This document shows positions 3,236-43,986 of a DNA stretch of 64,000 bases, in pieces (the first letter of the stretch is position 1; every line of letters starts with the position of its first letter). A program made the position numbers and the translations under genes. The DNA is from Chitinophagales bacterium (GTDB lineage: Bacteria > Bacteroidota > Bacteroidia > Chitinophagales > UBA10324). The stretch covers positions 1-64,000 of the forward strand of contig JACDDS010000017.1 of assembly GCA_013816805.1 (NCBI GenBank). The letters run 5' to 3'. The notes below the pieces were generated by a model that saw only the letters and a program-made list of their open reading frames with translations, did no database searches and was not told the DNA's origin.

Positions 3236-6200
3236 TTATGGGTGAATTGAAGAAATAACCAAGTATGTATTATTTTCCATGATAGAATAGTCAGATGATT
3301 CAACAACTCCATCACCGGTAATGTCCTGGATAATATATCCGGTAAGGACCAGGTAAACAGCATTTTCCATTTCGCTATAATCAGAACTTTCTACTACATT
3401 ATCCTGGAATCCAAGTCCTAAGCCAGCATCAGCAATATCCCCGCTATAGAACGCCCATATTCCAGGCTCCATTTCTACCATATTTCCTCCGTATGCTTTA
3501 TTGCTGTTTGTTGTGAAGTCATAGCCTAAGCTAATATCAACGGGTTGTGCACTCCATGTTTCAATAGTATTACGGTGTGTTACTTTCAAGTAATAGTTAC
3601 CCGTAACGCTGCCTGCGAAACTGACAGATAGTTGTCCATTGGTTTGCAGAATTCCTTTAGCACAATCTACTTGAGAAAGTGTGTTAGGATCTATGAGGCA
3701 GACTGTAACACTGTCGGCATCATTAACATTAGCAGATAATCCAGTTACAAACAAACATCCACCGGCTCCAAAATTATCCATAGGAGTAGGTGATCCTATA
3801 TTCTGATAATAACCCTGGATGAACATTTTAATATTCACTGTAGAGCTGCACACATTTACGGCAATGGTTTTAGTCGCATTCGCTGTTCCGCAGGTATTGG
3901 TTACTGTGTAAGTGATCGTTGCATTTCCTGTGCTTACGCCCATTACCAGCCCATTTCCATCCACTGTAGCTACCGCCGTATTATCACTGCTCCAGGATCC
4001 CCCTGCATCTCCATTGCTGGAAAGTGTAATAGTAGAACCTGTGCATACCGATGAAGCACCGCTGATGGTACCTGCATTAGCATTTGGATTTACTGTTATT
4101 GATTTCGTGGCTGTAGCCGTTCCGCAATTATTGGTTACCGTATAAGTAATCGTGGCACTTCCGGCATTTACGCCTGTTACCACACCAGAACTGTTCACCG
4201 TGGCCGCAGCTGTATTGTCACTGCTCCAGGTACCACCTGCATCTCCACTACTGGAGAGCGTAGTAGTAACACCAGCGCATACCGAAGAAGCACCGCTGAT
4301 AGTACCTGCATTAGCATTTGGATTTACTGTTATTGATTTCGTAGCTGTAGCCGTTCCGCAGGTATTGGTTACTGTATAAGTAATCGTGGCACTTCCCGCA
4401 CTAACCCCTGTTACTACACCACTCGCATTTACGGTAGCAACGGCTGAATTATCACTCGACCAGGTTCCACCTGCATCACCATTGCTGGAGAGCGTAGTAG
4501 TGGCACCAGCACATAGTGATGATGCGCCGGTAATAGTACCTGCATTGGCAAGCGGATTTACAGTTATAGATTTTGTTGCTGTAGCTGTTCCGCAGGTATT
4601 GGTAACGCTATAAGTTATAGTAGCACTTCCCGCACTCACACCTGTTACCATGCCGCTTGTACTTACAGTAGCAACGGCTGTATTGTCACTGCTCCAGGTA
4701 CCACCTGCATCTCCATTGCTGGAAAGTGTAGTTGTTAATCCAACACATACTGAAGAGGCGCCGCTGATAGTGCCTGCATTGGCGTTCGGGTTAACAGTGA
4801 CTGATTTTGTTGCTGTAGCCGTTCCACAGGTATTCGTCACGCTATAGGTGATGGTAGCAGTTCCTGTACTTACTCCCGTTACTACACCACTCGCATTCAC
4901 GGTTGCAACGGCTGTATTATCGCTGGTCCATGTTCCACCGGCATCACCATTACTTGTTAAAGTGGTTGTTGTTCCGATACATACTGATCCGGTACCACTG
5001 ATCGTCCCGGCATTAGCATTTGGATTCACTGTTATTGATTTCGTTGCTGTAGCCGTTCCGCAGGTATTGGTAACGCTATAGGTTATAGTAGCACTTCCCG
5101 CACTTACGCCTGTTACCACACCAGATGTGCTTACCGTGGCCACGGCTGTATTGTCGCTAGTCCAGGTTCCACCTGCATCCCCATTGCTGGAAAGCGTGGT
5201 AGTTGCACCGGAACATACCGATCCTGATCCGCTGATCGTCCCTGCATTAGCGTTCGGGTTAACTGTTATTGATTTCGTAGCTGTAGCTGTTCCGCAGGTA
5301 TTAGTTATGCTATATGTGATGGTAGCAGTTCCTGTACTTACTCCCGTTACTACACCACTCGCATTCACAGTTGCAACGGCTGTATTACCGCTTGTCCATG
5401 TTCCACCGGCATCACCATTACTTGTTAAAGTGGTTGTTGTTCCGATACATACTGATCCGGTACCACTGATCGTCCCGGCATTAGCATTCGGATTGACCGT
5501 CACTAATTTTGTTGTGCTGGCTGTTCCGCAGGTATTGGTTACCTGGTAGGTGATGGTTGCAGTTCCTGCACTCACACCTGTTACTACACCCGATGTACTT
5601 ACCGTAGCAACGGCTGTATTATCACTGCTCCAGGATCCACCTGCATCACCATTGCTGGTAAGTGTAGTTGTTAATCCAACACATACTGAAGAAGCACCAC
5701 TGATAGTACCTGCATTGGCATTTGGGTTAACTGTTATTGATTTCGTGGCTGTAGCCGTGCCGCAGGTATTGGTTACCGTATAAGTAATCGTTGCACTTCC
5801 TGCACTTACGCCTGTTACCACACCAGATGTGCTTACCGTAGCAACGGCTGTATTATCACTCGACCAGGTTCCACCTGCATCACCATTGCTGGTAAGTGTG
5901 GTTGTTAATCCAACACATACCGATGATGCACCGCTGATAGTACCTGCATTAGCATTCGGATTTACAGTTATTGATTTTGTTGCCGTAGCCGTTCCACAAG
6001 TATTGGTTACTGTGTAAGAGATGGTAGCAGTTCCAGTGCTCACACCGGTTACCACACCGGAAGAACTTACCGTAGCTACAGCTGTGTTATCGCTGCTCCA
6101 CGGTCCGCCTGCGTCTCCATTACTGGAAAGGGTAGTAGTAGCACCTGCGCATACAGATGATGCACCACTGATAATACCTGCATTAGCATTTGGGTTAACT

Positions 6201-9200
6201 GTTATAGATTTCGTTGCTGTAGCCGTTCCGCATGTATTGGTTACCGTGTAAGAAATCGTAGCACTTCCGGCACTTACACCGGTTACAACACCAGAACTGT
6301 TCACCGTGGCAACAGATGTGTTGTTGCTGGTCCAGCTTCCACCTGCATCACCATTGCTGGTAAGTGTAGTTGTTAATCCAACACATACCGAAGAAGCACC
6401 GCTGATAATACCTGCATTGGCATTTGGATTTACAGTTATTGATTTTGTTGCTGTAGCTGTTCCGCAGGTATTGGTAACGCTATAGGTTATAGTGGCAGTT
6501 CCTGCACTAACACCGGTTACCACACCAGATGTACCTACGGTAGCAACGGCTGTATTACCACTGCTCCAGGCTCCGCCTGCATCTCCATTACTGGAAAGTG
6601 TGGTAGTTAATCCTGCACAAACTGATGATGCGCCGCTTATAGTACCCGCATTGGCATTCGGATTCACTGTTATTGATTTCGTGGCTGTAGCCGTTCCGCA
6701 GGTATTGGTAACGCTATAGGTTATAGTAGCGCTTCCTGCACTTACGCCGGTTACCACACCGGTTGAGCTTACTGTGGCCGCAGCTGTATTATCACTCGAC
6801 CAGCTTCCACCTGCATCACCATTGCTGGTAAGTGTAGTTGTTAATCCAACACATACTGAAGAAGCACCGCTGATAGTACCTGCATTGGCATTTGGGTTAA
6901 CTGTTACCGATACCGTTGCCGTGCTGGTACAGGTTGTTGCAGGGTTCTTCGCAGTAACTGTGTATGTAGTAGTGCCATTCGGTGTTACGGTGACACTGGC
7001 TCCGCTCAAATTTCCTGGATTCCAGGTAAATGTCAGGGAAGAAGTCTGATCACTGTTATATCCGAAGGTTGTTAAAGGACGGTTTGAGCCGGTGGTGCCC
7101 GTTGTTAACGAACAGGCGCCGGCAAATCCTGCCTTCTGGTCTACTGATACAAAGGCAGTAGTATTCGATGAAACAGTGGAGGAACCACTTGCTGAAACCA
7201 CATCATAACAAAGGTTGACTACAATATTTGATGTTCCATCCCAGGTAAACGGAGTGTTAAAGGTATGCAGGTTGGTTCCTACAACAGCATTATAAGAAGC
7301 CGCCGTATAAACGGTGGTAAAGGTTCCGGTCAGGAAAGTGGTAGATGAAAATGAGGTTGCAGTAACCGGGGCGATGCTGATGGTGTAGTTCGTCATGGTA
7401 CCGCTTCCTGCTGAAGTAACATTCCAGGAAATACTGGTTATGCTGCCTGCTGTAACCCCGGCAGCGCTCAATTCAGCAGCAGTAAATAAGTATTGCGTCC
7501 GGGTTGAAGGTGTAAGGCCTGAACGATATGGGCTGTTGGTAAGTTCTGTGCTGGTAGATGTTCCGATAGTTGCAGAACCTGCTGATCCGGAATTCGCCGA
7601 TAGTACTGCAGAGCCACCAGGGCAAATGGCACCCGGAGTAGCAGTAGCTGAAGAAATTACCGGAAGCGGATTTACCACTACTGTGGCTGTGGCTGTGGCT
7701 GAGCAACCGCCATAAGTTCCGTTTGTATTATCCGTAGCAGTTACTGTGTATGTAGTAGTGCCTGTTGGCGTTACAGAAGTATTATTAGGCAGATTTCCAG
7801 GGTTCCACACGAATGTATAAGACGGATTTGAAGTACTGCTTGCACTGAGGACGGTGCTTTGCCCGGCGCATATCGTGGAAGGAGTAGCCGTTGCGCTGGT
7901 GATCGCAGGCGGAGTAGTAACAGTAGCTACAACAGCGGTCCGTGCTGATTCACATCCTGACGATAGTGACCAGTTGTAAAAATTATAGTAGTAACCTGTG
8001 GTTGCATTAGAATTTCCTGTAATGGTTACCCCATTTACCGGGCCATAAGTAGCTGTGGCGCCGGAAGAATTCCGGAGCAATGTGGCCGTGGAACCGCTTG
8101 CATAATTGAGCCTGTAGCTGGTACCCGGCGTTAAAGCAAATCCTAAAGGAATGGTGATCGGGGTCCCGACCGTGGTGGATGTAGAGTTAGCCTGAGCAGC
8201 AGTAATGGTTACTGTTGCGCTCGTCTGTAACACCGTGCCCGAGGAATTCAGCACGGTAACGATCACATTGCCAGCTGCTGTGGCGTAGACGTCCACGGAG
8301 TTGAGCGTTACATTGGAGGTGACATCAAATATTTCGTAGGACCCTGTAAAGCTGGTGCTAAAAGCTCCGATCGAAGGACTCACCGGACCTAAGGTACCGC
8401 TTGTACCGCCCACAGAAGCGCTTGCATAAAATGTAGTGGTAGTGCTTATTGACGGAGTGGTGAATGAATTACCGCTTGCCAAAGGAGTTCCGCCGGTTGC
8501 AGCAGTATACCAGTTCACCGTAGAACCTGAAGTTGACGTTGCCTGTAAATTCACTGTTCCGGTTCCACAACGGGCAGCAGGAGTCGTTCCTGTTATCATC
8601 GGATCGTTTACGGTTACCGCAACTTCATTTGATAAGGCTGTTGCACAGGAGCCGCACTTGGTGCAGGTTACCTGCAGCACATAATAGTAGGTTCCGCCTG
8701 TTAAATTGTTAGGAGTAGTATAGCTGGAAGTGGTTGCTCCTGATCCGCCGGTTACAGCCACATAGCCGCTTCCTGAAGCGGAAGAAACAAGCCACTGATA
8801 GGTAAACCCTGATAAAGCTGGTATGCCGGTAGCAGTAAGTGTGGTAGCGGTGTTTGAGGCACACACAGCAACTGTATTTGGAGTAATTGTTCCTCCGGTG
8901 GCGCTGCCGCAATCCGGAGCCGCCGTAATATTGATGTAATAATCTTCTGTTTCGCCGTAAGTATAGGTTCCACATGGACTAATACCGGAAGCTGACGAAG
9001 TTTCAACACTCACTACCCGCATTTGTGTAGTGCCGGTCGTAGCAGTCACAGGGACTGTTATGGTTCCGGATTCCGTATGATTTCCTAAAACGAAAGGAGA
9101 TGTATATACCAGTTCATTGGCATCACTGAAAGAGCCGTTTTGGTTATAATCAATGTAAATTTTAAAGCCATTAGTATACGTATAAGAATTGTTGCAAGTC

Positions 9201-42652: not shown

Positions 42653-42712
42653 TTTTTCGTGGGTAAATTTACTTGAAAAATCAGTTCATCAAAAGTTATT
42701 GATACTTAATAT

Positions 42713-42904
42713 ATGGTTTCACAAATGCCGTGGATAGCGCGCAGCTTTAATTTCGATATCCCAATAGACTTGTTTCCTTACGTGTTAGTTCGCTATGGCG
42801 GAACGCCGGCAAGGGTTGAGGACATGATACAAAATCACAACAATACGGAAGTATTAAACCGGAACATGGAAACTGTATGTCAAAGATCATTTGAAAAATT
42901 CTGA
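42713..42904 (+). pseudogene. Remnant of a DinB-family gene, N-terminal fragment
   Basis: The 63-codon frame begins MPWIARSFNFDIPIDLFP and runs through RYGGTPARVEDMI, matching the N-terminus of DinB proteins of the type ...RKFNFDFP...ERLRGTPARLEE. After that the reading loses similarity and stops. Full-length members have about 150-180 residues and carry metal histidines, all missing here. It is most likely a truncated remnant; no insertion sequence or repeat marks the break. Confidence 0.6.
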
Positions 42905-43011
42905 AAGCAAATCACAACCGTTGGCATCAAATCACAACACAATTCAAGCTATAGTGATGTAGGTTGAACCTGACTGCCCCATTAAATAGCGATTATTACA
43001 GTCAGCAGGCT

Positions 43012-43986
43012 CTATTTCTTTCGCCGTTTGTTTCTTGCACATATAGGGCACCATTTCCCGCGTCTCACCGTTCTTAAAGCAGTTACCCATCGGTGCCCTT
43101 CACCGCATAGCCATTCTACTCTCGAGTTAATATTCTTGTACTCCTTAGATAGTATCTTTCCGCCGCGCTTTTCAGCAATTTTTGCGTACACTTCAAGTGG
43201 AAAGAGCGATTTTTTATGACTGCGAATGGTAGCACATTGGGGACACCATTTCCCATTCTTAATGTTGTGAGGTTTAGACCACCATACATGACCTGCTTTG
43301 CATTTCCATTTTAATTTTGTATAGCAATTCACATAAGTTTTTGACAGCAATTTGCCAGCCTGATCTTTTGCAATTTTTATGAATATTTTAATGCTGTCCT
43401 TTTGTTTCTCAGCAATATCAGTGTGAAAGCATCGAAAGCACCATTGACCTCGCTGTATTGCGTTTGGAAGTGCCCACCATTCATGACCTTGTGCACACCG
43501 CAATTGAAGGCGTGTAGCATTGTTAACGTAGTCAGTGGATAAAAGCTGGCCCCCGCGGTTCTTTACAATCCTGGTGTATATATTAAAATATTTCTTTTTT
43601 CTTTTTTCAGTTTTTTCATTATAAGAACAAATCGGACATCGTATTCCTTTCCTTTTTATTCCGGCAGCCTGGACCTTCCAGCAATGTCCATTATGGCATT
43701 TAAAAAGAAGCTGGGTTTTTAAATTAGCGTATGTGGTGGAGAGGCATTCGCAGCCTTGTTCATGTGCCAGCTCATGAAACTTATTAAGCCGTATTTTCTT
43801 TTCATCATTCTTAGCACATTGCATACACCATGAACCTTGCTGTATGTGTGCAAATGCTCTTTCAAAAACGTGTCCTTGCTTGCATTTCCAGATAAGCTTG
43901 GAAAACATTTCTGCATATTCTTTACTAAGGCATTTTCCTTCCCGGGTGCCTGCATAAAATTGCATATCATTAATAGTATACTCCAC
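43012..43986 (-). CDS. Five-fold zinc-ribbon (treble-clef-like) repeat protein
   Basis: The 324-residue protein consists almost only of five tandem modules of 62-67 residues. Each has GGxLLSxxYxN, a hydrophobic strand and a putative zinc site C-x3-H-x14/15-C-x2-C: C35/H39/C54/C57, C97/H101/C117/C120, C164/H168/C183/C186, C229/H233/C248/C251 and C294/H298/C313/C316. The protein is Lys/Arg-rich. Similar C-x2-GH-xW ... WCPxC units occur in probable zinc-ribbon families (DUF4379-like) and next to nuclease domains, but no nuclease domain is present here. Nucleic-acid binding is a plausible inference. It has no signal peptide, so it is cytoplasmic. Isolated gene between the DinB remnant and prfB. 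Confidence 0.8.
   Translation of the reverse strand: MEYTINDMQFYAGTREGKCLSKEYAEMFSKLIWKCKQGHVFERAFAHIQQGSWCMQCAKNDEKKIRLNKFHELAHEQGCECLSTTYANLKTQLLFKCHNGHCWKVQAAGIKRKGIRCPICSYNEKTEKRKKKYFNIYTRIVKNRGGQLLSTDYVNNATRLQLRCAQGHEWWALPNAIQRGQWCFRCFHTDIAEKQKDSIKIFIKIAKDQAGKLLSKTYVNCYTKLKWKCKAGHVWWSKPHNIKNGKWCPQCATIRSHKKSLFPLEVYAKIAEKRGGKILSKEYKNINSRVEWLCGEGHRWVTALRTVRRGKWCPICARNKRRKK

Follow-up and report, generated by a model that had tools for sequence, protein, structure and literature searches.

DUF4379/CapR-like modules are known elsewhere from EDxHD/Vsr-like homing endonucleases, in which they recognize the target. The phage intron homing endonucleases, as the available part of PMC12350094 presents them, contain three to five domains of ~60 aa in addition to an EDxHD/Vsr domain; these small domains are distantly related to CapR, DUF4379, and DUF723, and the CapR-like domain is regarded there as likely DNA-binding. 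According to the available sections of PMC10448857, the T5orf172 homing endonucleases possess repeated zinc fingers, between which recombination occurs, and CapR, the capsid repressor of the phage satellite PLE, is a zinc-finger DNA binder derived from the DNA-binding part of these enzymes, which represses and does not cut. It should be mentioned that these sections mostly write DUF4397 (PF14344), with 4379 in one figure legend, and that the family meant is uncertain. DUF4379 is not named in the available part of PMC4999995.

The protein described here shares with the phage intron enzymes tandem modules of ~60 aa akin to DUF4379 and a patchy occurrence. Unlike those enzymes, which in the available part of PMC12350094 bear a nuclease domain and reside in introns, it is nuclease-free, and its gene follows prfB with no intron noticed. 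The comparison with CapR also reveals differences. The CapR motif is CxxC...CxC (PMC10448857, available sections), whereas the present protein has five C-x3-H...C-x2-C modules and gives no Pfam match to the CapR homology domain (PF21817) at E values up to 10, although several of its relatives do match this domain. Furthermore, the neighbours of its gene look like housekeeping genes, unlike those of CapR.

An intact protein of five zinc modules

The window, i.e., the whole stretch of 64,000 nucleotides analyzed, contains an intact ORF of 324 aa at 43012-43986 on the minus strand, with a GTG start and a TAG stop (ORF list and translation). When the surrounding 3 kb were shuffled base by base 300 times, no open run exceeded 263 codons, as against the 324 found here. 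The protein has five C-x3-H-x14/15-C-x2-C sites, which start at residues 35, 97, 164, 229, and 294 and are therefore spaced by 62, 67, 65, and 65 residues. In 5000 shuffles of the protein, the motif was found 0.005 times on average and once at most. The initial annotation had described five regular zinc modules that fill the whole chain with a period of 62-67 residues, and the ORF and the five sites agree with this description.

The CDS of the five-module array (43012..43986, minus strand) was assigned on the basis of the DUF4379 match and the full-length alignment of homologues. All the modules are on the minus strand: the N-terminal module 1 at 43810..43986 (zinc site, 43816-43884), module 2 at 43621..43800 (43627-43698), module 3 at 43423..43599 (43429-43497), module 4 at 43228..43404 (43234-43302), and module 5 at 43033..43209 (43039-43107). 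The DUF4379 stretch of module 4 alone is under the cut-off, and that of module 5 reaches it together with its neighbours. The protein is basic (67 Lys and Arg versus 24 Asp and Glu), with a strongly positive net charge. Elsewhere in the window, long tandem repeats of 234 and 468 bp are located at 88-2305 and 3978-6906, perhaps in repeat-rich surface-protein genes.

Pfam DUF4379 (PF14311) matches the protein in four stretches with 45.7 bits (cut-off 24.5; E 7e-12), and, taken singly, its modules score close to or below the cut-off. Two PHROG families named endonuclease match it with E values of 6e-45 and 3e-41; these matches cover residues 86-255 and 28-320, i.e., the modules. Searches of the protein against Pfam, NCBIfam, and PADLOC found no catalytic family at E <= 0.001. 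The best E value from NCBIfam was 0.12, with no match close to the cut-offs, and the sole PADLOC match listed, ThsB (E 0.013), is not believed. Pfam found no T5orf172 domain in the protein. An EDxHD/Vsr nuclease domain was also absent from it, and the insert profile A3 found none in its genome; the module spacing of 62-67 residues leaves no room for such an insert. The proposal that no nuclease is attached is supported.

Predicted fold of the modules

The structure model was calculated from the protein and 17 aligned relatives. Its mean pLDDT is 90 and its pTM is 0.49: the modules are well predicted, but are poorly fixed relative to each other in the model. The order of a helix, a β hairpin, a short helix, and a helix is repeated five times. 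The DUF4379 modules are thus predicted to be treble clefs, not zinc ribbons. Pfam likewise gives a probable treble clef, so that the earlier term "zinc-ribbon" was loose. The four putative zinc ligands are present in all five modules, and the protein probably binds zinc.

Among predicted viral structures, 188 entries match the model at E <= 0.001. The best 50 of these 188 include many array proteins of phages and giant viruses, and several of their names are homing endonuclease, restriction endonuclease, and CapR homology protein. In the PDB, Foldseek found nothing significant for the model (best E 0.011), and sequence and profile searches listed no chain for the array at a significant E value. 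The best PDB match of a single module by VIA-align was a chain of the trypanosome mitoribosomal small-subunit assembly, with a Z score of 5.9 and an rmsd of 2.2 over 59 aligned residues (24% identity). This resemblance would fit binding of structured RNA by the treble-clef modules. RNA binding seems quite unlikely, however, since a Z score below 8 may mean only a common arrangement, the trypanosome chain does not appear among the profile matches listed for PDB sequences, and the recognizable extra domains in the relatives are mostly DNA nucleases or homing-associated.

Homologues and distribution

The same genome encodes a paralogue of 325 aa with five modules and 41% identity (40% in alignment A2). 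One of the 15 other family genomes, G004, encodes a homologue of 322 aa (L040), also with five modules and with 37% identity. All 20 zinc ligands are kept in the three proteins in the full-length alignment. The presence of two five-module homologues of the same size means that the protein is not a fragment. The initial annotation had named derivation from a longer nuclease gene as a contrary case; this possibility was therefore discarded, and in addition no nuclease remnant was recognized by eye in the six frames of 42653-43020.

A search with the DUF4379 family adds one family genome, G015, in which the match is in a 128-aa frame. When the own genome is included in each count, matches were found in 2 of 60 genomes of a wider sample, in 4 of 395 genomes of the phylum, in 6 of 396 genomes of the order (profile A1), and in 21 of 395 genomes of the class (broader profile A5); a nuclease-free array is the best locus in 13 of the 395 class genomes. 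The module family is present in 254 of 50,697 phage records and 40 of 72,556 plasmids and, judging from predicted-structure matches, in giant viruses. Scans of the viral and genome collections with single-protein patterns gave no homologues. Profile A1 found none in the viral collection and 32 loci in the genome collection. The earlier statement that such arrays are rare in bacteria is thus only partly right; the occurrence in phages, plasmids, giant viruses, and 13 of 395 class genomes speaks against rarity.

Transfer of the gene had also been suggested. The patchy occurrence (1 of the 15 other family genomes) and the different neighbours at each copy fit transfer, but the composition does not indicate a recent one: the GC content of the gene (0.401) is normal for the window (0.423). 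For the paralogue, the GC content (0.444) is somewhat above that of the adjoining sequence (0.398).

Two architectures and the inserted nuclease

The relatives occur in two forms: arrays with an EDxHD/Vsr-like nuclease insert of ~127 aa, and nuclease-free arrays, which range from 2 modules (L113 and L114) to 11 (L103). The window protein belongs to the nuclease-free form. The insert recognized by profile A3 is carried by 12 of the 32 loci of the genome collection. Ten loci (L040, L041, L042, L045, L046, L050, L055, L057, L062, and L063) are nuclease-free as judged from module spacing and A3, with a Pfam scan for L042 and L045 only. Three loci have other C-terminal parts: that of L056 consists of HA and HNH-repeat domains (Pfam), and those of L065 and L067 were recognized by eye, with zinc-type domains only found by Pfam in L065. 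The other seven loci are partial or unclassified. In the class sample, besides the own genome, the best locus is nuclease-free in 12 cases and has the A3 domain in three; the remainder comprises one other nuclease-like insert (by eye) and four unclassified loci. L055 is identical in sequence to L111 of this sample. The A3-type domain is also present in the Bacillus phage relative L128 and in three plasmid relatives, L132, L137, and L138.

Thirteen aligned inserts have the invariant residues E9, D43, E54, H60, D80, and K83. The fold of the insert, modeled for one insert with its flanking modules, is predicted to be closest to that of the homing endonuclease I-Bth0305I (Z 9.2; rmsd 3.4; 94 aligned residues), followed by Vsr (Z 8.5; rmsd 3.1; 104 aligned residues), with a Toxoplasma mitoribosome chain tied with these two (Z 8.8; rmsd 3.4; 107 aligned residues). 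The invariant residues and the I-Bth0305I/Vsr-like fold suggest that the usual company of the array is a DNA cutter. It is this domain, the counterpart of I-Bth0305I and Vsr, that is missing from the window protein. The arrays themselves remain similar, with 33-43% identity between the window array and those of nuclease-bearing relatives (alignment A2). The ligands are invariant in sets of 147 and 41 modules, which is circular, because the modules were picked by the motif.

Profile A3 gave no match in the 16 family genomes, the own genome included, or in the four genomes with the nuclease-free arrays L041, L042, L045, and L004. It matched four of four known carrier genomes, whose sequences are contained in A3 and which are thus no independent control.

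Two further features were observed in nuclease-free arrays. The seven-module array of L041 (5992-7434) contains one in-frame stop that separates four modules from three, either as a real split or through an assembly error. The five-module arrays of L050 and L062 (Gammaproteobacteria) have an initial hydrophobic stretch, by eye a membrane anchor, which is unusual for a DNA binder.

Genomic setting

The GTG start of the window gene is 51 bases from the stop of the upstream gene on the same strand. The gene names used for this region and its counterparts, prfB (the upstream gene), rpsP, surE, and DUF4920, are putative assignments. In four of five relatives viewed, among 15 listed by the search, prfB is followed by rpsP (by recognition). 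This order points to a rearrangement or insertion at the window locus in this lineage. The ORF at 42713-42904 on the plus strand had been regarded as a gene remnant and a sign of transfer. Pfam gives no match for it at E <= 0.01, nor does the PDB give a credible one for its first 40 residues, so that it does not constitute evidence for transfer. Assignment of this ORF to a DinB-like gene had no support from Pfam or the PDB and was abandoned.

Among the 15 other family genomes, the two genes that flank the G004 homologue are neighbours without an array in 3, and in the other 12 they were not observed together. Such a site, together with the free-standing position of the arrays between unrelated genes, would be consistent with a selfish immunity factor or competitor, in which binding of the array at the site cut by a homing endonuclease or phage would shield this site from invasion. 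We regard this as very unlikely, because no insert-type nuclease was found in the 16 family genomes and the two copies in the window genome have no flank sequence in common (blastn). In a comparison of L104 with G830, which belong to one genus, for an empty site of a nuclease-free array, only the upstream flank was found.

Around the paralogue are a GIY-YIG gene (~0.66 kb), a PDDEXK_3 gene (0.8 kb), and a type ISP/IIG restriction-methylation gene (1.4 kb; L151, 2958-6215), and the genome has one T5orf172 match (E 2.8e-4) elsewhere. These genes favour a two-part system, in which the array would recruit or guide a nuclease encoded elsewhere (GIY-YIG, T5orf172, or other), so that homing or defence would still end in a cut. 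Such a system is unlikely: no nuclease gene was recognized by eye in the ORF lists next to either the window gene or its G004 homologue, no specific partner gene family recurs at 16 Bacteroidota loci, and the genome gives no insert-type nuclease match at this sensitivity. Comparison of the genomic neighbours in other genomes, which the initial annotation had proposed, yielded no recurring specific partner at these 16 loci. The mutually matching neighbours there are large repeat-type proteins, one pair shared by L041 and L142, and a family of ~200 aa, 4-5 kb away, that is common to L142 and L151. Defence-type genes are close to two arrays: the type ISP/IIG gene at the paralogue and, at L150, the PADLOC candidates PDC-M19A/B, which adjoin the array (7207-8061).

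In Proteobacteria, nuclease-free arrays adjoin RHS, VgrG-PAAR, TssF, or FhaB/FhaC genes in 7 of the 12 cases with neighbours seen; these loci were chosen from hit lists, not at random. The seven (L063 at 5998-6801, L129, L130, L131, L133, L134, and L135; 4-6 modules) are from Burkholderiales and one Pseudomonas, and the RHS gene of L129 was assigned by eye. L062, the second array of L132, L136, L139, and L140 are without such neighbours. The proteobacterial arrays at these loci resemble the window protein in being nuclease-free and having 4-6 like modules. However, they have such neighbours and a common C-terminal module (by eye), and the window gene has neither.

Tandem repeats with a 21-bp period and unlike sequences were observed within 1.5 kb of the array at 6 of 14 array loci, against ~1.0 expected from controls in the same genomes, some of them short, that were not matched for intergenic space. 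They are at 7607-7845 in L042, 8612-8778 in L142, 6818-7056 in L143, 8585-8925 in L144, 5958-6183 in L147, and 2309-2421 in L112, whose array is nuclease-bearing. No such repeat is present near the window gene, and the control of 100 kb from its genome has 0; a role of these repeats as the target was accordingly not adopted.

Evolution and selection

A tree was calculated from the first two modules of 37 proteins, and its root was not inferred. Six proteins with incomplete or unusual first modules were dropped from it, and 28 loci (duplicates, distant subtypes, partial ones, and the nuclease-bearing L064) had been left out beforehand. The window protein groups with the paralogue (96/87). Beyond one fork (87/68) are all 11 nuclease-bearing rows and 8 nuclease-free rows; the 18 rows outside that fork, which come from Bacteroidota or the same class, are without exception nuclease-free. 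Sixteen of the 34 inner branches are unresolved. On this weakly resolved tree, the nuclease-free label is clustered, with 5 changes against a mean of 9.7 after shuffling (0 of 500 as low). By identity, however, the closest array is composed of the five modules of the nuclease-bearing archaeal L039, with 43% in alignment A2 (paralogue 40%) or 42%, so that a separate nuclease-free lineage is not clear-cut.

When the modules of the three copies were paired by position, 6, 31, and 26 of 120 permutations scored at least as well. Orthology of the modules position by position was thus weak and was not retained; only module 1 has its best match in its counterpart in the paralogue (53%). In the comparison of module 1, module 3 of L055 (49%) is as near as module 1 of L041 (49%).

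Selection was estimated for close pairs of nuclease-free arrays. The dN/dS values were 0.035/0.336 (NG86) and 0.037/0.274 (YN00) for the two-module arrays of L113 and L114, and 0.031/0.261 (NG86) or 0.038/0.189 (YN00) for the six-module arrays of L129 and L131. These two pairs, which are family members other than the window gene, are under purifying selection, with a ratio of 0.10-0.20 depending on the method. In two further comparisons with L133, dS was saturated.

Many family members carry nucleases, including L039 with the closest array by identity, and the occurrence is patchy, as would be seen if the window gene were a decaying remnant of a homing endonuclease, deprived of its nuclease and no longer functional. 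Against such decay, the frame is intact, the three diverged five-module copies have retained every one of the 20 zinc ligands, and the two pairs of other nuclease-free arrays show the low dN/dS ratios given above. A remnant is therefore highly improbable.

The genomes of L113 and L114, which belong to different families, share more than 3 kb at 89-94% identity around the two-module array. Since the flanks are also alike, the pair may have moved within a larger segment, and a recent transfer of such a segment between these genomes is suggested. The nuclease-bearing pairs L044/L048 and L074/L075 are alike over the gene only, as expected for homing.

Proposed function

We propose that the protein is an intact, nuclease-free five-module DNA-binding array, which is related to homing endonucleases and acts by occupying DNA. 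We give this proposal about an even chance of being correct. The observations behind it are the five-module architecture, which two diverged homologues have conserved, the lack of a recognized nuclease in the protein, and the lack of an insert-type nuclease match in the genome at this sensitivity. Bound to double-stranded DNA, the array would resemble beads on a string, in which each basic module would contact a few base pairs and the five together would read a long site. Such occupancy might block transcription, or the site might be shielded or competed for. That the protein binds DNA, and that it works as a repressor or roadblock, is inferred, and CapR, the only characterized precedent that we found for DNA occupancy by such a protein, may serve as an analogue. 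The searches found no operator or target for the window protein.

Eukaryotes usually read DNA with multi-module zinc arrays that have no catalytic part. A broader and more tentative idea, which we consider possible though rather doubtful, is that nuclease-free arrays are widespread modular DNA readers of bacteria, consisting of 2-11 near-equivalent zinc modules that undergo gain, loss, and shuffling, maintained by selection, and located at spots of genomic conflict. If this is true, the conflict spots would be restriction, RHS/T6SS, and two-partner-secretion loci in several hosts. A bacterial class of catalysis-free zinc arrays seems hardly described; the available parts of the DUF4379 literature lead to homing-endonuclease contexts (PMC12350094 and PMC10448857). 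The nuclease-free arrays would then be a bacterial counterpart of the eukaryotic multi-zinc-finger or TALE proteins, with the window protein as a typical member. If DNA is read module by module, they would provide a natural recognition scaffold of variable size. In that case, the family would also offer a direct test of how the DNA-binding parts of selfish nucleases turn into regulators.
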